Positions 14,593 through 39,907 of a stretch of DNA of 64,000 bases are shown in pieces. The stretch covers positions 1,178,001 through 1,242,000 of the forward strand of contig NZ_FNNP01000001.1 in assembly GCF_900106805.1 (NCBI RefSeq), in the 5' to 3' direction. A program made the translations under genes and the position numbers. Source of the DNA: Ruegeria halocynthiae. Lineage in GTDB: Bacteria > Pseudomonadota > Alphaproteobacteria > Rhodobacterales > Rhodobacteraceae. The stretch's first letter is position 1. Every line of letters starts with the position of its first letter. The notes under the pieces were generated by a model that worked only from the letters and a program-made list of their open reading frames with translations, did not search any database and was not told where the DNA came from.

Positions 14593-14650
14593 GATGGGTT
14601 TCTAACCCATCACGGCAAAACAGGAGTGATGGGGTGCAACCCCATCCTAC
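14589..14650. repeat. Inverted pair of 25-bp palindromic elements; likely bidirectional terminator
   Basis: Two 25-base elements face each other at 14589-14613 and 14626-14650, separated by 12 bases. Each is itself an imperfect palindrome (GATGGGTT with AACCCATC; GATGGGGT with ACCCCATC), and the outer arms GTAGGATGGG / CCCATCCTAC also pair. The TAG stops of both flanking convergent genes are built from the outer GTAGG arms. Related copies lie at 13994 and near 14031. A terminator role for both genes is inferred. Confidence 0.7.
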
Positions 14651-15417
14651 CCCAGCTTTTGTTCCAACCATTCCACAATCTGCCCGGCAGGTCCTTCCCA
14701 GCCGGGTTCCATGAACAGAAAATGCGCGTGGTTCTCGACCGCCATAAACGTCGCGCGGTCTCCGTAAAGCTTCGCCAACGCGCGGCAGGTGTTGGGGTTC
14801 ACGGCTCGTTCCTCGGTGCCTGACACGATCAGCACCGGGCAGTCCACCTTGTCGATATCAACCTTCATCGCGTGGTGGTCGTCGAACATCCAGAAGAACA
14901 TCTCGAACATCACCCGCCCGCTTTCTGCGCCCAGCTGGTCGAACACCTCATGCTGCTGCGCCTCGGGCATTTTGTTCAGCGCAAACGGGGCCATCAGATC
15001 GAAATCAACCCGCATGGGCTGTTTCCAGAACGCCCCGCCCTCCATCAAAGCGCGTGGCACGGCGCGTTCGTCGTCGGTTTCGGGCAACGTGCCCCACGGC
15101 GCGTTTGGGTTGATCAGGACAATCGCGCTGGCCAACCCACGCGCAGCCACCTGCTGCGCCACAACGCCCGCGATGGCATGACCCAGCAGTACCGGCTTGC
15201 TGTCCAGCCCCTGAACGAACGCCGCAATGTCGTCGGTATAATCCGTCACGCTGGTGTCCGTCAGCCCCGGGTCAGGCTCGGCCTTCGGGTCCCCGCCATG
15301 ATAGCGCAGCGCAGGCGTATGGACCGTCCAGCCACGCCCGCGGAAGAAATCAGCGTAACCTTCCATACACCACGGCCCGGCAAAGGCCCCATGGATCAGG
15401 ACAATCTCTTTAGTCAT
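14647..15417 (-). CDS. Alpha/beta-hydrolase-fold protein lacking the nucleophile serine
   Basis: A 256-residue alpha/beta-hydrolase-fold protein with the usual oxyanion-hole start (LIHGAFAGPWCM, residues 7-18) and a C-terminal NHAHFLFMEPG that supplies the histidine. The nucleophile elbow reads GHAIAG at 79-84, so the expected Ser/Cys/Asp is Ala81, and the usual acid position reads GTEERAV. It may therefore be non-hydrolytic or use another chemistry. The ATG lies after GGGAGG. It starts 58 bases after the alcohol dehydrogenase stop and is probably the last gene of the catabolic operon. Confidence 0.85.
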   Translation of the reverse strand: MTKEIVLIHGAFAGPWCMEGYADFFRGRGWTVHTPALRYHGGDPKAEPDPGLTDTSVTDYTDDIAAFVQGLDSKPVLLGHAIAGVVAQQVAARGLASAIVLINPNAPWGTLPETDDERAVPRALMEGGAFWKQPMRVDFDLMAPFALNKMPEAQQHEVFDQLGAESGRVMFEMFFWMFDDHHAMKVDIDKVDCPVLIVSGTEERAVNPNTCRALAKLYGDRATFMAVENHAHFLFMEPGWEGPAGQIVEWLEQKLG

Positions 15418-15475
15418 GAAAACCTCCCTCACCTCTGATCAGTATGAGAGGTGAGGGATGGGATCTGCAAGCCTG

Positions 15476-16621
15476 TTACAATGCGGCTTTGAACAGTACG
15501 GTCAGGTTGTCTTCGGTCAGTTCGATCGGATTGCCACCGCAGGACGGATCGAGGATGGCTCCCTTGACCAGTTCGGGAATCGACGCCTCGGTCACACCCA
15601 GATCAGAGAGCTTGCGAGGAATGCCCAGCGAGTCATTGAATTCTTGCACAAAGGTGCGGAACCCGTCGAAGCCACCGTCGATGCCCAGATAGGCTGCCGC
15701 CTGCTGGAAGCGATCGGCAATGGCGGGAGCGTTAAAGTCCAGCACGGCAGGCATGCAGACCGCATTCGTAGTGCCGTGATGGGTGTTGAATACCGCGCCT
15801 ACGGGGTGGCTCATCGCATGGATCGCGCCGAGGCCCTTCTGGAAAGCAGTTGCACCCATGGCAGCGGCGCTCATCATCTGTGCGCGGGCCTCAATGTCAG
15901 ACCCATCGGAATAGGCACGCGGAAGGTAGTCTTTGACCAGGCGCATCCCTTCCAGCGCGATGCCCTGCGACATGGGGTGGTAATGCGGGCTGGAGAACGC
16001 CTCGACACAATGGGCGAACGCATCCAGTCCGGTGCCTGCGGTAATGAATTTGGGCATTCCCACGGTCAGTTCCGGATCGCAGATCACCACCGAGGGCAGC
16101 ACCTTGGGGTGGAAGATGATCTTCTTGGCATGGCTTTCCGAGTTGGTGATGACACTGGCACGCCCGACCTCGGACCCGGTACCGGCGGTCGTGGGCACCG
16201 CAATGATCGGTGCAATGGCATCCGCATCAGCACGGGTCCACCAGTCACCGATATCTTCAAAGTCCCAAACAGAGCGCGTTTGACCGCACATGAAGGCGAC
16301 CATCTTGCCCAGATCCAGCCCCGAGCCGCCACCAAACGCGATCACCCCGTCATGACCACCCGCGTTATAGGCCGCAACACCGGCATCGAGGTTCTTTTCG
16401 TTAGGGTTTGGGTCCACGTCGGAAAACAAACCCCGACCCAGACCCGCGGCCTCAAGTATATCCAGCGCGGCAGAGGTGATCGGCAGATCGGCCAACCCCT
16501 TGTCCGTAACTAGAAGTGGCCGCTTCATCCCCGCCGCCGCACAGGCCTCGGGCAGTTCCCGGATACGTCCGACGCCGAATTTGATTGCGGTCGGATATGA
16601 CCAGTTTCCTACGATTGACAT
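15476..16621 (-). CDS. Iron-containing (group III) alcohol dehydrogenase
   Basis: A 381-residue NAD(P)-dependent alcohol dehydrogenase of the FucO/AdhB type. The nucleotide-binding GGGSGLDLGK and the metal-ligand segments (GLDAFAHCVEAF with Asp and His; AIHAMSHPVGAVFNTHHG with two His) are intact. It sits 67 bases downstream of the aldehyde dehydrogenase, so the pair could oxidise an alcohol to an aldehyde and on to an acid. Given the glutamine-synthetase-like gene upstream, I infer a gamma-glutamylated amino alcohol as substrate, but a plain alcohol is not excluded. Confidence 0.92.
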   Translation of the reverse strand: MSIVGNWSYPTAIKFGVGRIRELPEACAAAGMKRPLLVTDKGLADLPITSAALDILEAAGLGRGLFSDVDPNPNEKNLDAGVAAYNAGGHDGVIAFGGGSGLDLGKMVAFMCGQTRSVWDFEDIGDWWTRADADAIAPIIAVPTTAGTGSEVGRASVITNSESHAKKIIFHPKVLPSVVICDPELTVGMPKFITAGTGLDAFAHCVEAFSSPHYHPMSQGIALEGMRLVKDYLPRAYSDGSDIEARAQMMSAAAMGATAFQKGLGAIHAMSHPVGAVFNTHHGTTNAVCMPAVLDFNAPAIADRFQQAAAYLGIDGGFDGFRTFVQEFNDSLGIPRKLSDLGVTEASIPELVKGAILDPSCGGNPIELTEDNLTVLFKAAL

Positions 16622-16688
16622 GTCAGCTTTCCTTTGTGTCTTGGGGCCTGCTCTGGAGAGGGGTCAGTCCAGAGCAGGCCGTTCGTCC

Positions 16689-18071
16689 TCAGCCCGTGAC
16701 CTTTTTCAGGTGATAGGATTTGGGACGTGTCAGGTTGTGGTAGCCAATGACGGACAATCCGCCACCGCGCCCGGTGTTCTTGCAGCCGGTCCAGCAAAGA
16801 CCGGGGTCCAGATAGTCGGCCCGGTTCATGAAAACCGTACCGGTTTCGATCTGATCTCCCACGCGGGCCGCCCGATCCGCATCTCGGGTCCAGAGGCTGG
16901 CGGTCAGGCCAAATTCGCTATCATTCATCAGTGCGATGGCTTCCTCATCCGAGGACACTTTCATGATTCCCACCACCGGGCCAAAGCTCTCATCTCGCAT
17001 TACACGCATGTCGTGGGTGACATTCGTCAGGATCTGAGGCGTCAGGTAGGCATTGCCATCATCCTCATCGAAAGTGTCGATATGGGTTACAGCACCCGCA
17101 GCAACCGCCTCGGCAATCTGCGCACGCACCTCATCGGCAAAGCGTGCATTGGCCATTGGGCCAATCGTCGTCGCGGCATCCAACGGATTACCCAGCTTGT
17201 ACCCCTTCACGATTTCCACCGCCTTGGCAACGAAATCATCATAGAGGCTTTCATGCACGTAGATCCGCTCAATCCCGCAGCAGCACTGGCCCGAGTTGAA
17301 CATCGCCCCATCGATCAGAGTATCAACGGCTGCGTCCAGATCGGCATCCTCCATTACATAGCCCGGGTCCTTGCCGCCCAGTTCGGTGCCAACGCCGGTG
17401 AACGTGCCCGCCGCTGCGTGTTCCATCGCCCGACCTCCGCCAACCGAGCCAGTGAAGTTCACGAAGTCGAACGCATTGCCTGCAATCAGATCGTTGGTCA
17501 CATCATGGCTCAAGAATACGTTCTGGAACACGCCCTCAGGCACACCAGCCGTCTGAAAGGCCTGCACCATACGCTCGCCCACCAGCAAAGTCTGCGTTGC
17601 ATGTTTCAGAACCACCGAATTGCCCGCAATCAGCGCCGGGGCCACCGTGTTGATCGCCGTCATGTAGGGGTAATTCCAGGGGGCCACCACAAAGACCACC
17701 CCATGTGGGATGCGCTTGATATAGCGCCGGAATGTCTCATCCTCACCCACCGCGATATCCGCCAGAGACGTCTCGGCGATCTCGGCCATATGGCTGGCGC
17801 GCTCGTTGAAGCCGCCAAACTCACCGCCATAGCGCACGGGGCGGCCCATCATATGCGCCAGTTCCGGCACAATCTCATCATTCATCGCGCCCACAGCAGC
17901 AACACCTGCCATCACAAGATCGATACGCTCCTGCAAAGGCCGCGCCGCCCACTCTGCCTGTGCCACCCGCGCGCGTCTGGCGGCGTCAAACGCCACCTCC
18001 AGCGACATCGCCTCGCGCGCCGCAAAAACCGACCCATCAATCGGCGAGACACATTTCAACATCTGCCCCAT
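16689..18071 (-). CDS. NAD(P)-dependent aldehyde dehydrogenase
   Basis: A 460-residue member of the ALDH superfamily, oxidising an aldehyde to its acid. Visible are the substrate and nucleotide segment VVAPWNYPYM, the TGSVGGGR glycine motif, the general-base Glu in TELGGKDPGYV, and the catalytic Cys within FNSGQCCCGIER. The ATG follows GGAG at 5 bases. It is preceded by the glutamine-synthetase-like gene (93-base gap) and followed by the alcohol dehydrogenase gene. In gamma-glutamylation pathways such as Puu, an ALDH of this kind oxidises the gamma-glutamyl aldehyde. Confidence 0.93.
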   Translation of the reverse strand: MGQMLKCVSPIDGSVFAAREAMSLEVAFDAARRARVAQAEWAARPLQERIDLVMAGVAAVGAMNDEIVPELAHMMGRPVRYGGEFGGFNERASHMAEIAETSLADIAVGEDETFRRYIKRIPHGVVFVVAPWNYPYMTAINTVAPALIAGNSVVLKHATQTLLVGERMVQAFQTAGVPEGVFQNVFLSHDVTNDLIAGNAFDFVNFTGSVGGGRAMEHAAAGTFTGVGTELGGKDPGYVMEDADLDAAVDTLIDGAMFNSGQCCCGIERIYVHESLYDDFVAKAVEIVKGYKLGNPLDAATTIGPMANARFADEVRAQIAEAVAAGAVTHIDTFDEDDGNAYLTPQILTNVTHDMRVMRDESFGPVVGIMKVSSDEEAIALMNDSEFGLTASLWTRDADRAARVGDQIETGTVFMNRADYLDPGLCWTGCKNTGRGGGLSVIGYHNLTRPKSYHLKKVTG

Positions 18072-18164
18072 ATCTACTCCATCTCGACAGAAAGCAGATC
18101 CCCTGCTTCATCTGGCCAAAAATATCTCGGGGAGCGCGAGGGGCTGGCCCCTCGCTCCTGCCTT

Positions 18165-19517
18165 CTAAGCCCGCTCAAATCCGCGGGCAATTTCCCAATC
18201 GGTCACCACGCGTTCGAACTCCTCGATCTCCACTTCAGCTGCACGTACGTAGTGATCCACCACCTCATTCCCCATGGCTGTGCGCAACATGGCCGAGCCA
18301 TGCAGCGCATGCCGCGCCGCGCTCAGATTACCAGGGATCATTCCCGTTTCTCCCTGATACACATCGCCTTGGCTCGGCGGCTGCAACTCCAACTCCTCCT
18401 CGATGCCGGCAATTCCCGCAGCCAGCATCCCTGCCATTGCCAGATAAGGGTTCATGTCCGAACCCGGAATCCGGCATTCCACCCGGATCGCCTTGGTGCC
18501 ATCGCCACACAGGCGAAATCCTGCGGTGCGATTGTCCACCGACCAGATGATCCGTGTCGGCGCAAAAGTGCCCTTCATGAACCGTTTGTAGCTGTTGATA
18601 TACGGCGCCATGAAACAGGTGTAATCGGCAGCGTATTTCAGCAGGCCAGCCATATAGCTTTTCATCACATCCGACATACCCAGTGGATCTTTTTCGTCGA
18701 AAAAGACCGGTACCCCATCCGCCCAAAGCGACTGATGCACATGACTGGAACTACCCACTTTCTCATGATGCCATTTCGGCAGAAAGGTCACCGCATGGCC
18801 ATGCTGCCAAGCGATCTCTTTCACTGCGTTTTTCGCTATCGAGTGATATTCGGCCGTGTCCATCGCCGACGCATATTTGATGTTCAGTTCTTCCTGACCG
18901 GTCTCGGCCTCACCTTTCGAGTTCTCAACCGGTATGCCCGCGTTCCACAGATGGTTGCGGATCGGGCGCATCACATGTTCTTCCTTGGTGGTCTGAAGGA
19001 TGTGATAGTCCTCGTTATAGCCCGAGATCGGCTCCAGTTCGCGGAAACCCTCTTTGCGAATCTGATCAAAGCTTTTCTCGAACAGAAAGAACTCCAGTTC
19101 GGTCGCGCACATTGCGTCATAACCCATCGCCTTCAGACGATTCACCTGACGCTTTAGAATCGAGCGTGGCGCGTGCGGCACCTCTTCATGGGTGTGATGA
19201 TCCAGCACATCACACATCACCATTGCCGTGCCCTCAAGCCACGGCACCGGGCGCAGAGTACTCAGATCTGGCTTCATCACATAATCACCATAGCCCCGCT
19301 CCCAACTGGTTGAGGCATAGCCATCCGGCGTTCCCATCTCGAGATCCGTCGCCAGCAGATAATTGCAGCAATGCGTCTCTTCCCACGCGCCCGCCAAAAA
19401 ATGACCCGCATGAAACCGCTTGCCCATCAATCGGCCCTGCATATCGACCATGCACACCAACACAGTGTCAATTTCCCCGGCAGAAACCTGCGACTTAAGA
19501 TGCTCGAATGTCAGCAT
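18165..19517 (-). CDS. Glutamine-synthetase-family ligase, probable gamma-glutamyl amine/amino-alcohol synthetase
   Basis: A 450-residue ATP-dependent ligase of the glutamine synthetase fold. Metal and substrate segments are intact: ATELEFFLFE, GEAETGQEELNIKY, GSSSHVHQSLW, RIIWSVDNRTAGFR and RVECRIPGSDMNPYLAMA. The C-terminus lacks the adenylylation-loop Tyr region of housekeeping GlnA. Its place between a TRAP transporter and two dehydrogenases fits PuuA, IpuC or GlnA4 type enzymes, which join glutamate to an amine rather than to ammonia. The real amine acceptor is unknown. Confidence 0.88.
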   Translation of the reverse strand: MLTFEHLKSQVSAGEIDTVLVCMVDMQGRLMGKRFHAGHFLAGAWEETHCCNYLLATDLEMGTPDGYASTSWERGYGDYVMKPDLSTLRPVPWLEGTAMVMCDVLDHHTHEEVPHAPRSILKRQVNRLKAMGYDAMCATELEFFLFEKSFDQIRKEGFRELEPISGYNEDYHILQTTKEEHVMRPIRNHLWNAGIPVENSKGEAETGQEELNIKYASAMDTAEYHSIAKNAVKEIAWQHGHAVTFLPKWHHEKVGSSSHVHQSLWADGVPVFFDEKDPLGMSDVMKSYMAGLLKYAADYTCFMAPYINSYKRFMKGTFAPTRIIWSVDNRTAGFRLCGDGTKAIRVECRIPGSDMNPYLAMAGMLAAGIAGIEEELELQPPSQGDVYQGETGMIPGNLSAARHALHGSAMLRTAMGNEVVDHYVRAAEVEIEEFERVVTDWEIARGFERA

Positions 19518-19608
19518 AAATTACCTCTGCGCTGCGCGAGAATTTTCGATGAAAATTCTTAATCCACATGGTGACCGGCCCGCTGTCAAACGGGCCGGTT
19601 CTGTTTCA

Positions 19609-20643
19609 TCAGCCGTAACGATAAGGCCGTCCGGCCTTGAGCATTTCGGCGTTATAGCGTTTGAAGATATCTACAACCTTCGCTTTGGTTTCGGATTCCG
19701 CCGCAACTTCATCCCAGAACTTTACAGCCGCCTGCTCGACGGTTGCCCATTCCTCATCCGGGATAGTCGTCAGCTGCATCTTGGTACCGTTGACCCGCAG
19801 ATTGGCCTCACCACCCCAATACCACCACTGGCGATAATAATGTGACTGGTCACAGCACACCTTGAACAGGGTTTGCAAGTCCTCAGGCAGTTCGTTCCAG
19901 CGATCCATATTGGCAAAGAAGTGACCCGCCCAGGCACCCGAGATGTTGTTGGTCAGGAAGTAATTGGTCACATCCGCCCAACCGACTGTGTAGTCCTCGG
20001 TGATGCCCGACCAGGCGATGCCATCAAGTTCGCCAGTCTGAACCGCGACCTCGATATCCTCCCATGGCAGTGATACCGGCACCACGCCAAACTGGCTGAG
20101 GAACCGACCCGCCGTTGGGAATGTAAAGATGCGTTTGCCTTTCATATCTTCCAGCGAGTTAATCGGATCCTTGGTGGCAAAGTGGCATGGGTCCCATGCA
20201 CCGGCGCTGATGTGCTTGACACCGACCTTCGAATATTCCTCATCCCAGATTTCGTTCAGACCCCACTGGTTAAACAGCACCGGCACGTCCAGCGAGTATC
20301 GCGAAGCGAACGGGAAGTAGCCGCCGAACACAGTAACTTCGGTGGGCGAGGCCATCGAGTCATCGTCTGACTGAACCGCATCAATGGTGCCTTTCTGCAT
20401 GGCGCGGAACAGTTCTCCGGTGGGAACAAGCTGATCGGCATAGAACAGCTCGATCTGCATCCGATCACCGGCAATCTGATTGAACATCTTGATGGCCGGG
20501 TCAATCACATGCTCGGCCAGTGCGGGACCGGCATAGGTCTGCATCCGCCAGGTGATCGTGCTTTGCGCCAGTGCGGGCGTAGCCAGAGGCGCAGCCGCAA
20601 CCCCGACTCCTGCGGTTTTCAGAAACTTCCGTCTTGTCGTCAT
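19609..20643 (-). CDS. TRAP transporter substrate-binding protein (DctP family)
   Basis: A 344-residue periplasmic binding protein for the adjacent TRAP permease. It has a Tat-type leader (TTRRKFLKTAGVGVAAA, cleavage near ATPALAQ, residue 27). The body reads like the TakP/DctP group (WRMQTYAGP, GTIDAVQSDDDS, GELDGIAWSG), whose known ligands are organic acids bound through a conserved Arg. It is the largest intergenic-flanked gene of the operon (51 bases from dctM, 91 to the GS-like gene). The ligand is not readable from sequence. Confidence 0.92.
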   Translation of the reverse strand: MTTRRKFLKTAGVGVAAAPLATPALAQSTITWRMQTYAGPALAEHVIDPAIKMFNQIAGDRMQIELFYADQLVPTGELFRAMQKGTIDAVQSDDDSMASPTEVTVFGGYFPFASRYSLDVPVLFNQWGLNEIWDEEYSKVGVKHISAGAWDPCHFATKDPINSLEDMKGKRIFTFPTAGRFLSQFGVVPVSLPWEDIEVAVQTGELDGIAWSGITEDYTVGWADVTNYFLTNNISGAWAGHFFANMDRWNELPEDLQTLFKVCCDQSHYYRQWWYWGGEANLRVNGTKMQLTTIPDEEWATVEQAAVKFWDEVAAESETKAKVVDIFKRYNAEMLKAGRPYRYG

Positions 20644-20694
20644 GTCAATTTCCTCTCCGTTAAAGTTTGAGTGCCCGTTTGCCGGGCCTTCTTG

Positions 20695-22014
20695 TTAATT
20701 TCCGTAAACATACCCGGGCAGCCACAGGGCGATCTCGGGGAAAATCATGATAATCGCGAGCGCCAGAAGCATCACCCCGACAAAGGGCACGATCGAGCGA
20801 TAGATATCCTTAAGGCTGATCTCGGGTGGTGCCATTGCCCGCATCAAGAACAGGTTATAGCCAAAGGGCGGCGTCATATACGCGATCTGGGTGGTGATCG
20901 TATACAGCACGCCGTACCAGATCAAATCGAACCCCAACGCACCGACCAAGGGTACATACAACGGCGCCACGATGACCAGCATGGCCGTGTCATCCAGGAA
21001 CGTACCCATAACGATAAAGCTGAGTTGCATCAGGATCAGGATCAGCCAGGGCGACAGACCCAACTGGTCGGTGAACAGATTTTCGATGGCTTTCACCGCG
21101 CCCAGCCCATCAAACACCGCGCCAAAGCCCAGCGCTGCAAGGATGATCCACATGAACATGCACGAAATGGCCAGCGTCTGCTTGGTGCAGTCTTCGAAAA
21201 TCTTCCACGTCATACGACGCTTGAGGATCGACGCCACCAGTGCCGCCAACGCCCCGATTGCCGAGCTTTCAACCAGCGATGTCCAGCCGTTCACAAACGG
21301 AAGCATCATGGACGCAAAGATGATCAGCGGCAGCGCCCCTGCTCCAAGCAGGCGCAGTTTCTCGGCGCGTGGCACCTTATGCGCATCTTCCATTGCAGGG
21401 CCCAGATGCGGCTGAAGCCGACATCTTATCCAGATGTATAGGATGAACAGGGACGCCATCAGCAGCCCCGGTACAATCCCGGCCAGCCACAGCTGACCCA
21501 CGGGTTGCCGCGCGATCATAGCATAAAGAACCAGAACAACCGATGGCGGCACAAGGATGCCAAGGCTCGACCCCGCCTGAATGACCCCCGTTACCATGGT
21601 TTTGTCATATCCGCGCCGCAACAGCTCAGGCAGCGCGATCGTCGCCCCGATGGCCATACCTGCCACGCTGAGCCCGTTCATGGCTGAAACCAGGACCATC
21701 AGTCCGATTGTGCCAATGGCAAGGCCTCCGTTTACCGGCCCCATCCAGACGTGGAACATGCGATAGAGATCGTCAGCCAAGCGGCTTTCGCTGAGGACAT
21801 AGCCCATGAAGATGAACATCGGCAGCGTCAGCAGAGGGTACCATTTCATCAGCTTCATCGCCGCCGAGAACGGAATGTCCTGCCCGCCCGTCCCCCACAG
21901 CGCCAGCGCCGCGATGGCCGCGACCGCCCCGATGGCACCAAAGACGCGCTGCCCGGTGAACAGCATCAGCATCATCGAGGCGAACATGAAGATGGCAATA
22001 AATTCCTGGCTCAT
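20695..22014 (-). CDS. TRAP transporter large permease subunit (DctM)
   Basis: A 439-residue integral membrane protein with about 12 hydrophobic segments, the usual DctM size. Family stretches are visible (LPMFIFMGYVLSES, IQAGSSLGILVPPSVVLVLYAM, GTFLDDTAMLVIVAPLYVPL, TPPFGYNLFLMR). It works with DctQ and DctP as a Na+-coupled uptake system. The start at 22014 overlaps the dctQ stop by 4 bases (ATGA); the 44-codon upstream extension lies over dctQ in another frame and is not coding. Confidence 0.94.
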   Translation of the reverse strand: MSQEFIAIFMFASMMLMLFTGQRVFGAIGAVAAIAALALWGTGGQDIPFSAAMKLMKWYPLLTLPMFIFMGYVLSESRLADDLYRMFHVWMGPVNGGLAIGTIGLMVLVSAMNGLSVAGMAIGATIALPELLRRGYDKTMVTGVIQAGSSLGILVPPSVVLVLYAMIARQPVGQLWLAGIVPGLLMASLFILYIWIRCRLQPHLGPAMEDAHKVPRAEKLRLLGAGALPLIIFASMMLPFVNGWTSLVESSAIGALAALVASILKRRMTWKIFEDCTKQTLAISCMFMWIILAALGFGAVFDGLGAVKAIENLFTDQLGLSPWLILILMQLSFIVMGTFLDDTAMLVIVAPLYVPLVGALGFDLIWYGVLYTITTQIAYMTPPFGYNLFLMRAMAPPEISLKDIYRSIVPFVGVMLLALAIIMIFPEIALWLPGYVYGN

Positions 22015-22592
22015 GCGCGCCCTGCCCCGATCTCTTGCCCGTTGATCCGCGCAATGTCTTTGAAAAACTCTGATATCGCCTGCAGCAGCATCAGGAAGAA
22101 GCCGAACACCATCATCGCCTTGACCGGCCAGATATAGGGCCGCCATGCGGTGGATGACCGTTCCAGGCGCCCGACCTCTTCGTTGCCGGTCAGCAGGCCC
22201 GCGAAATAGGTGACAGGCTCATCGCCCCAATAGCCAAGGCTATACGCAGTGGACCCGAGCCCACCATAGAACAACACGCCCAAATAAAGGATCAACAGCA
22301 ATACTGTGAACGCATCAAACCACGCTTTTCGGCGCGGGCTCCAGTTATGATAGAACAGGTCCATCCGCACGTTCGATCCCAACTGGATCGAGTACGGCCC
22401 ACCCATGATGTAATATGTCACCATGGCAAACTGCGCCATTTCCAGCGTCCACAGCGAGGGCAGAAAGAACGTCTTCGAGATCGAAGACCAAAGCAAAACT
22501 GCCATCATCACGAACAGGCCCCACATCATGACCCGTCCGATCCGGTAGTTTATCGCATCCACGATGCGTACATATGCGGCCATCAACTTCAT
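22011..22592 (-). CDS. TRAP transporter small permease subunit (DctQ)
   Basis: A 193-residue membrane protein with four hydrophobic segments, as in DctQ subunits, and the typical central stretch MGGPYSIQLGSNVRMDLFYHNWS. It is somewhat longer than the common 160-180 residues, as in the TakQ-like group. Its ATG overlaps the stop of the amidohydrolase-like gene and its stop overlaps the start of dctM, each by 4 bases, so the three genes are translationally linked. Confidence 0.92.
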   Translation of the reverse strand: MKLMAAYVRIVDAINYRIGRVMMWGLFVMMAVLLWSSISKTFFLPSLWTLEMAQFAMVTYYIMGGPYSIQLGSNVRMDLFYHNWSPRRKAWFDAFTVLLLILYLGVLFYGGLGSTAYSLGYWGDEPVTYFAGLLTGNEEVGRLERSSTAWRPYIWPVKAMMVFGFFLMLLQAISEFFKDIARINGQEIGAGRA

Positions 22593-23377
22593 GACGCTGC
22601 GCCCCGGATGGTGTTCCGCGTTCTACCCATCCACGGCACCAAAGTGCCCGCCATCGCCTGCTGTTCTTCGTGCGTCTGGATCAGATCGTTGCGGATCTCG
22701 ATCATGACGTTCAGCAATCCACGCGGAGCTGCGTGAAGATCCAGCGTGTGCGCCACCCCGTCGGCCGCTGAATAGGGCTCATTCAGGCGTGTAATCAGTG
22801 CCAGGTCCGGGGCCGCTGTATTCATCATACCCAGTGCAAAGCGATCATCCTTGCCATGCAACAGGCCCAGTTCGACCGATCGGTTCTGACCCCGGTACAC
22901 CGGCGTGAAACTGTGGATTGTCACCATCAGTTCAAGCGTGTCCCGATAGCGTTCCAGTATTCCCGTCAGCGCGGAGCGAAAGGGCGAATAAACCTTATCG
23001 ATCCGCGTCTTACGCTCTCTGTCAGTCAGGTGCGTGTTGCCCGGGATGACGAAATCCTCGCTTTTGACAGGCATCGCATCGCTGGCCTCGGGTGGACGAT
23101 TGCAATCGTAAACCAGCCGCGACACACCGCCATATACCATGGCCGCTGACATCCCGCGCGCGATTGCCTGAGCCACCGGCAACGCACCCGGGTCCCAGGC
23201 GATATGGCTGCGCCGAGCATCCTGGCTTAGGCCCATATCCCCCAACCCCTCGGGGATTCGGCGCGATGCATGTTCACACACAACGATGACCGACGGATTA
23301 TCCGCCGGTTCAAGTGTATGAACCACCGTTCCGAAATCCGGATGTCCGTACGATTTGAGGCTGTCATGTGATTCCAT
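22589..23377 (-). CDS. N-formylglutamate amidohydrolase-family protein
   Basis: A 262-residue member of the FGase fold (HutG of the five-step histidine pathway and COG3931 relatives). Conserved segments are VVCEHASRRIP, the VYDCNRPPEAS motif, VTIHSFTPVYRG and the C-terminal NVMIEIRNDLI. No hut genes are nearby. As the first gene of an operon with a gamma-glutamyl ligase, it may release glutamate from a gamma-glutamyl intermediate or a formylated compound; this is inference. Its ATG lies about 110 bases from the divergent regulator. Confidence 0.85.
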   Translation of the reverse strand: MESHDSLKSYGHPDFGTVVHTLEPADNPSVIVVCEHASRRIPEGLGDMGLSQDARRSHIAWDPGALPVAQAIARGMSAAMVYGGVSRLVYDCNRPPEASDAMPVKSEDFVIPGNTHLTDRERKTRIDKVYSPFRSALTGILERYRDTLELMVTIHSFTPVYRGQNRSVELGLLHGKDDRFALGMMNTAAPDLALITRLNEPYSAADGVAHTLDLHAAPRGLLNVMIEIRNDLIQTHEEQQAMAGTLVPWMGRTRNTIRGAAS

Positions 23378-23438
23378 GAGGAAAAATTTCTACACCCAAC
23401 CTTAACCTGTCAATAATTTTCCTGTAAAAGATTCTCCA

Positions 23439-23453
23439 CATTCAATTTGAATG
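23439..23453. promoter_or_regulatory. Perfect 15-bp inverted repeat, candidate RpiR operator
   Basis: CATTCAATTTGAATG is a perfect palindrome with a single central base, located in the AT-rich gap between the divergent regulator and operon. Its position, 62 bases from the operon start codon and 47-61 bases from the regulator start, suits control of both promoters. Binding by the neighbouring RpiR protein is inferred from position and symmetry only. Confidence 0.55.
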
Positions 23454-23499
23454 TCAAAAATTACACGCAGATGGCCTGCAACAAACAATGGAGTATTCC

Positions 23500-24369
23500 G
23501 TGCGAGTAACAGAAAGGCTCCTTGCGCATCGTGAAAAGATGACGCCATCGGAACGACAGTTGGTCAATGTACTGTTGGACGAATACCCAATGGCTGGTCT
23601 GGGCAGCATAACCGAACTGGCCAGCGCCGCCTCGGTCTCGACCACGACGGTTGCCCGAATGCTGCAGAAAACGGGATTTGGTGGCTACCCGCAATTTCAG
23701 GCCGCGATCCGCAGCGAAGTCAAAGAGATGATCTCGGGGCCCGTCGCCAAGCGTGATGTCTGGCAAAACGACCTGCCCGAAGAACACATTCTGAACCGGT
23801 ACTCGCGGCAGGCGTTGGAGAACCAGCGTCGCACCATTGATGAGATTGACCCGGAGGAGTTCGACAGCTTCTGCCGCCTGCTGTGTGACCCCGAGCGACG
23901 CATTTTTGTCACCGGCGGACGCATTACCGGCGCGCTGGCACAATATCTGTACCTGCACCTGCAAATGATACGCCCGGATGTAAAGCTGCTCTCGGACGCC
24001 GCATCATGGACCCACGACCTGCTCGAGATACGCGAAGGTGATGTGCTGGTTGCGCTGGATGTGCGGCGGTATGAGAACACCACCCTGCTGATCGGACAGC
24101 TTTGCCACGAACGGAAGGCCGAGGTTGTTCTGCTGACGGATCAGTGGCGCTCGCCCATTCATCGGCTGGCGAAACACACCTTCGCCGCGCGCATTGCGGT
24201 GCCATCGGCCTGGGATTCCATGGCCTCGCTTCTGGTGCTGCTGGAATGCGTGATCGCTGAAATGCAGGAGCGTCTGTGGGACAGCGTGAAAGAACGCACA
24301 GAGGAACTTGAGCAGGCCTTCGACCGGACGAAGCTATTCCGAAAATTTGGCCAAAGCTCAGGCTCGTAA
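23500..24369 (+). CDS. RpiR-family regulator (HTH plus SIS domain)
   Basis: About 289 residues. An N-terminal RpiR helix-turn-helix (about 1-75; MTPSERQLVNVLLDEYP, ASAASVSTTTVARMLQKTGF) is followed by a SIS sugar-phosphate-type ligand domain (about 120-260; RRIFVTGGRITGALAQYLY). The family senses phosphosugars or other acids. The GTG at 23500 lies 6 bases after GGAG; an ATG four codons upstream has no such site but is possible. Divergent placement makes it the likely regulator of the adjacent TRAP and gamma-glutamylation operon. Confidence 0.9.
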   Translation: MRVTERLLAHREKMTPSERQLVNVLLDEYPMAGLGSITELASAASVSTTTVARMLQKTGFGGYPQFQAAIRSEVKEMISGPVAKRDVWQNDLPEEHILNRYSRQALENQRRTIDEIDPEEFDSFCRLLCDPERRIFVTGGRITGALAQYLYLHLQMIRPDVKLLSDAASWTHDLLEIREGDVLVALDVRRYENTTLLIGQLCHERKAEVVLLTDQWRSPIHRLAKHTFAARIAVPSAWDSMASLLVLLECVIAEMQERLWDSVKERTEELEQAFDRTKLFRKFGQSSGS

Positions 24370-39471: not shown

Positions 39472-39629
39472 GAACCAAATCTCTCCGTTTGCTACTTGTG
39501 GGTCATGCCAGCACGTCCACCCAATCGGATCATGCCGCGCAGCGACGCGAACAGGTCGCTTTTCATCCCCCTGCTCGCCCGAACTGCGCGACACGCTTGA
39601 CAAGCTGCCTGCAGGTGCCGCATGAGCCT

Positions 39630-39815
39630 TGCGTTGGTGTCTGCAACAGCAGATGAAAAGGGAATGCGTCAGCGGTCATCCGTGAAACGCAGCCGCCCCC
39701 GCGACCGTGACCGGAGAGGGTGCCCAAAGCCACTGGCCAAATGGCCGGGAAGGCGGGACATCCGACAGGGCAATGCCCTGACATCCGCAAGCCGGGAGAC
39801 CTGCCAGCGCCCGAA
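39630..39815 (+). promoter_or_regulatory. Cobalamin (B12) riboswitch
   Basis: The conserved blocks occur in order: GGTG box region near 39633, GAAAAGGGAA at 39655-39664, the core GCCGCCCCCGCGACCGTGA at 39692-39710, GCCACTG near 39729-39735, CCGGGAAGGC at 39745-39754 and GCCGGGAGACCTGCC at 39791-39805. About 90 bases remain to the first gene, leaving room for an expression platform. It should switch the corrin operon off when adenosylcobalamin is plentiful. Confidence 0.95.
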
Positions 39816-39907
39816 GATGAAACCGGACGGGGTGTTCCGGTGTCGGGTCCATGTCGCAATACGTGGCCCGCATGAAACCCCGTCCCCCACGAAGAGGATT
39901 TGGGGGG

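Follow-up and report, generated by a model that had tools for sequence, protein, structure and literature searches.

The question raised by this locus of Ruegeria halocynthiae is which compound is imported and oxidised by the products of a gene cluster that joins a TRAP transporter to a glutamine-synthetase-like ligase, two dehydrogenases and an FGase-like protein. In the window, by which the whole analysed stretch of 64,000 nucleotides is meant (contig NZ_FNNP01000001.1, positions 1,178,001 to 1,242,000), open reading frame (ORF) calls place a regulator gene of the RpiR family (23488-24369, plus strand; Pfam HTH_6, 46.3 bits, and SIS, 67.6 bits) divergent from eight minus-strand genes at 14647-23377. 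Starting next to the regulator, these encode an FGase-like protein (22589-23377; FGase, 135.3 bits), the small (22011-22592; DctQ, 63.8 bits) and large (about 20695-22014; DctM, 226.3 bits) TRAP permeases, a DctP binding protein with a Tat signal (19609-20643; DctP, 77.4 bits), a ligase of the glutamine synthetase (GS) fold (18165-19517; Gln-synt_C, 329 bits), an aldehyde dehydrogenase (ALDH; 16689-18071; Aldedh, 381.5 bits), an iron-type alcohol dehydrogenase (ADH; 15476-16621; Fe-ADH, 163.4 bits, with ADH_Fe_C) and an alpha/beta hydrolase (14647-15417; Abhydrolase_6, 66.5 bits), for which the ATG at 15417, not the GTG at 15432, may be the start codon. The FGase and DctQ genes overlap by four bases, the DctM start was read from the sequence as an ATGA overlapping the DctQ stop, in preference to the mechanically called start at 22146, which was dropped, and the remaining gaps are 51 (DctM/DctP), 91 (DctP/GS), 93 (GS/ALDH), 67 (ALDH/ADH) and 43 bases (ADH/hydrolase). 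The placement and families of the nine genes given in the sequence-only reading, as well as its description of gaps of at most 93 bases, four-base overlaps and divergence from RpiR, were borne out by the ORF calls, the Pfam matches and the spacing.

The operon is of an already known type, since one serving ethanolamine has been published from Phaeobacter (Roseobacter) sp. MED193 (Westermann et al., 2023; PMC10132767). In that article the genes MED193_10021-10056 are given in the order RpiR, GGAH, EtoV, EtoW, EtoX, ETAGA, GAADDH and GETADH, and the operon is assigned the same chemistry of uptake, gamma-glutamylation, oxidations and glutamate release, with ethanolamine as the substrate; phosphorylethanolamine is reported to raise five of the proteins (MED193_10026, 10041, 10046, 10051 and 10056), and EtoX to bind ethanolamine with a Kd of 7.9 uM while not binding phosphorylethanolamine, phosphocholine or glycerol phosphates (PMC10132767). 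Chromohalobacter salexigens and A. tumefaciens are mentioned there as well, with Vetting et al. (2015) as the reference. Direct comparison with the MED193 record (L132, NZ_CH902583.1) revealed eight genes, the regulator and seven operon genes, in an order and orientation common to the window, with identities of 47% for RpiR (the counterpart of MED193_10021), 47% for the FGase-like protein (GGAH), 59% for DctQ (EtoV), 62% for DctM (EtoW), 90% for DctP (EtoX), 81% for the ligase (ETAGA), 86% for ALDH (GAADDH) and 88% for ADH (GETADH). It had been proposed from the letters of the DNA that no described pathway has exactly this gene set; all of these genes but the last are present, in identical order, in MED193_10021-10056, which rules out a new pathway, so that the claim of novelty falls to one published operon and no new pathway is added. 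The proposed chemistry, TRAP uptake of an amino alcohol followed by glutamylation and oxidation, is the pathway assigned to the MED193 operon, and the gene-order reasoning behind it probably led to the right chemistry; neither its novelty nor the alpha/beta hydrolase as a conserved member was supported.

The two operons also differ. RpiR and the FGase-like protein are only about 47% identical between them, and such low values are usual for the operon: across the family loci, with 59 proteins of each kind, the all-pairs median identities of FGase and RpiR were 46.4% and 48.3%, against 63.5-81.8% for the other six genes. The 62% identity of DctM refers to the sequences as aligned and becomes 83% over ungapped codons, the MED193 protein occupying 503 columns against 436 residues in the window; the difference is an insertion of about 65 residues that the MED193 protein carries (EtoW/DctM at L132:8428-9918) and the window DctM lacks. 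The MED193 operon, unlike that of the window, has no adjoining alpha/beta hydrolase. As a separate observation, the FGase gene evolves faster in protein than its seven neighbours when compared with Ruegeria sp. ANG-R (L119), with a pN of 0.11 against 0.02-0.04; pS was 0.46-0.57 across all eight genes, and FGase is still constrained.

Regarding the substrate, the best PDB match of DctP was the sequence of 4uab and 4xf5 (633.2 bits, E 1.2e-189), the next sequence scoring 70.7 bits. That sequence is Csal_0678 of C. salexigens, and the best match of the ligase was structure 5dm3 (790.5 bits), which we take to be from C. salexigens too, an organism of another class of Proteobacteria than that of the window. 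The stretch KGKRIFTFP of the window DctP, with its Phe, is presumably the site of the carboxylate-arginine motif. In 4UAB ethanolamine is bound to Csal_0678, with Glu220 holding both the amine and the hydroxyl (PMC12410723), and Csal_0678 is described as having no equivalent of the carboxylate-binding Arg-147, Phe being the commonest substitute in such proteins (PMC4646407). Glu216 of the window DctP was invariant in 16 of 16 aligned proteins, which included both DctP types described below, the mapping to published residue numbers having been made by eye.

It is highly improbable that the same pathway logic serves alaninol, 1-amino-2-propanol, 3-aminopropanol or a similar compound as the main natural substrate: the second PDB entry of the Csal_0678 sequence, 4xf5, whose ligand we take to be 2-amino-1-propanol, would fit such a substrate, as would a second DctP type found at the same operon place in 10 of 64 DctP proteins (less than 70% identical to the window's, and 61-64% in the five of the ten that were aligned), but the window DctP is not of this second type, is 90% identical to the EtoX with micromolar affinity for ethanolamine, and shares Glu216 with both types. 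The MED193 ligand panel, as the article describes it, consists of phosphorylated analogues and no other amino alcohols, and so leaves the latter in play (PMC10132767). The second DctP type was seen at loci L060, L038, L048, L050, L043, L051, L093, L084, L054 and L090, of which L038 belongs to a genome of the same genus as the window (G043).

Regarding the enzymes, a true ammonia ligase (GlnA) was rejected on two grounds, as the ligase scores 258.7 bits against a GlnA cut-off of 429.15 bits and the residues of the ammonium site are missing; as read from an alignment with the strain's paralogue L001, taken as GlnA from its top Pfam score, there is no DGSS motif and Phe replaces the Glu of GFEAP (the Glu327 loop). 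The alignment left out L002, the ORF of which is an aminotransferase, and L007. Paralogues L004, L005 and L006 are also without the loop Glu, L006 likewise having Phe there, so that this residue argues against an ammonia ligase more than it argues for ethanolamine. The Phe of the ligase agrees with GlnA4 of Streptomyces coelicolor, though not specifically given L006; GlnA4 is described as having Phe331 at the Glu327 position and as gamma-glutamylating ethanolamine in vitro (PMC6529630). The route set out for S. coelicolor resembles the window further in its proposed oxidations and in an FGase-family hydrolase proposed for gamma-glutamylglycine, but the legend names a short-chain dehydrogenase in place of the window's iron ADH, and the account includes a glutamine amidotransferase (orf5) and a putative transporter that is not called TRAP (PMC6529630). 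For the FGase-like protein, an identity as the N-formylglutamate deformylase HutG was rejected (TIGR02017, 26.9 bits, below the cut-off of 278.75).

An operon for polyamines or monoamines of the PuuA/IpuC kind has a practically negligible probability, since the gamma-glutamylputrescine synthetase model NF045547, although it matches residues 6-442 of the ligase, does so with 193.7 bits, far under its cut-off of 650; a simple amine would, moreover, need no alcohol dehydrogenase, and the binding protein matches EtoX. On the NF045547 score a polyamine or isopropylamine pathway was discarded. The Eut system of ethanolamine utilisation, with its ammonia-lyase and microcompartment, has the substrate alone in common with the operon, and a search that detected E. 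coli among 14 controls returned no EutB for the genome of the window.

The reading as an ethanolamine operon is accordingly detailed as follows. By its sequence, the operon very probably enables this marine bacterium to take up ethanolamine, which is a constituent of membrane lipids, to glutamylate it and to convert it to glycine. EtoX would bind periplasmic ethanolamine and EtoVW would transport it inward, whereupon the GS-like ligase would use ATP to join glutamate and ethanolamine to gamma-glutamylethanolamide. The iron ADH, acting as a gamma-glutamylethanolamide dehydrogenase, would oxidise the alcohol to the aldehyde, which ALDH would convert to gamma-glutamylglycine, and the FGase-like protein, as a gamma-glutamylglycine amidohydrolase, would release glycine together with glutamate, the latter being recycled. 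Glutamate would mask the amine throughout, and the pathway could thus dispense with both a free aminoaldehyde and the ammonia-lyase route of Eut. For the window strain, we infer these enzymatic steps and the regulation by RpiR on the basis of homology, gene order and residue signatures.

The ligase of the operon is common in the family, a relative at E <=1e-100 being present in 117 of 198 family genomes, with the window's own counted. Gene order was tallied in two samples that overlap in part (e.g. L057 / L193): 80 family loci with flanks, one each from 80 genomes (80 of 119 ligase matches), and, among named genomes, the best 80 of 593 EtoX loci, several of which were cut by contig ends. Matches to ALDH, DctM and DctQ below 38% identity were dropped and neighbouring repeats merged, a rule by which L090 loses DctQ and L046 loses ALDH. 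The full order of FGase, DctQ, DctM, DctP, GS, ALDH and ADH, with RpiR on the opposite strand, occurred in 56 of the 80 family loci, a recurrence that suggests more than chance, and in 51 of the best 80 of 593 EtoX loci, some of the others ending at a contig edge. The genes are conserved together, and the loss of joint conservation that would have spoken against the operon was not seen. The remaining family loci comprised seven with GS, ALDH and ADH, seven with GS and ADH, four without RpiR and FGase, two without the TRAP genes and four with other or partial arrangements.

Among the 80 family loci, 17 yielded no TRAP gene of this kind beside the ligase (seven GS ALDH ADH, seven GS ADH, two RpiR FGase GS ALDH ADH and one GS alone), from which it follows that the enzymes may serve other transporters or substrates. 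No common replacement transporter was seen by Pfam among ten proteins from seven of 17 TRAP-less or rearranged loci (L070, L113, L073, L046, L100, L102 and L082), which matched an RND pump, a class III aminotransferase, EamA, two Opp-type ABC parts, a sulfotransferase and a sulfatase, with three giving no match. The ligase-ADH part without TRAP genes lies near the class III aminotransferase and the EamA protein in L046, and near the Opp-type ABC transporter parts in L102.

Among the best 80 of 593 EtoX loci, the operons nearest to that of the window, with flanking genes in common, were those of Ruegeria arenilitoris (L118), Ruegeria sp. ANG-R (L119) and Ruegeria sp. THAF57 (L121). GS, ALDH and ADH were 88-94% identical to the window in L118, L119, L121 and L122 (Ruegeria profundi) and in L139, L146 and L150. 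In the group of four, RpiR reached 84-96% identity and DctQ 88-93%, against 46-47% and 69-70% in the group of three. To judge from these sequences, the operon of Ruegeria and near relatives appears to be a mosaic, the regulator-transport half looking as if it had been swapped as a block. A wider proposal, in which GS-ALDH-ADH is a reusable module combined with varied transport and regulation halves, RpiR-FGase-DctQM looks swapped as a block in Ruegeria and near relatives, the module lacks this TRAP system in other genera and part of the family may serve amino alcohols other than ethanolamine, is quite doubtful.

Regarding the alpha/beta hydrolase, which the sequence-only reading had counted as part of the operon, none of the 80 family loci has it adjoining the operon, and three of the best 80 of 593 EtoX loci do (L118, L119 and L121), all from Ruegeria. 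The gene is probably a local, lineage-specific neighbour, though it may be co-transcribed. That in some Ruegeria it functions as the final gene of the operon is unlikely: it lies on the ADH strand after a gap of 43 bases, is 89-91% identical at the same place in those three loci, and is followed directly by a site in a terminator scan (14646-14628, minus strand) that found none in the ADH-hydrolase gap; however, a 12-pair hairpin (15425-15458, minus strand) stands between the two genes, the hydrolase was not seen next to the operon in L122, the same-genus genome G043 yielded no hit to it at 1e-40, and across 99 genomes searched besides the window's own it gave one match, 39% identical. The hairpin, which has no entry in the terminator scan, was predicted by RNA folding of 15405-15476 (-25.2 kcal/mol, z -2.07), an energy matched by 6 of 200 shuffles.

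Regarding regulation, a 17-bp inverted repeat with 8-base arms and a 1-base centre, recognised by eye in the divergent promoter gap (23438-23454), is a candidate regulator site. No family-wide operator was found in 117 RpiR-FGase gaps, a set in which the sequences are related and some recur. TGTAG-N6-CTACA, the best dyad, occurred in 10 of them, too few for such an operator, and the best dyad of any kind reached at most 2 in each of three mononucleotide shuffles. A promoter scan returned 6 sites against 6.0 expected. Elsewhere in the window, a cobalamin riboswitch (39618-39822, 103.7 bits) was detected ahead of a long run of plus-strand ORFs.
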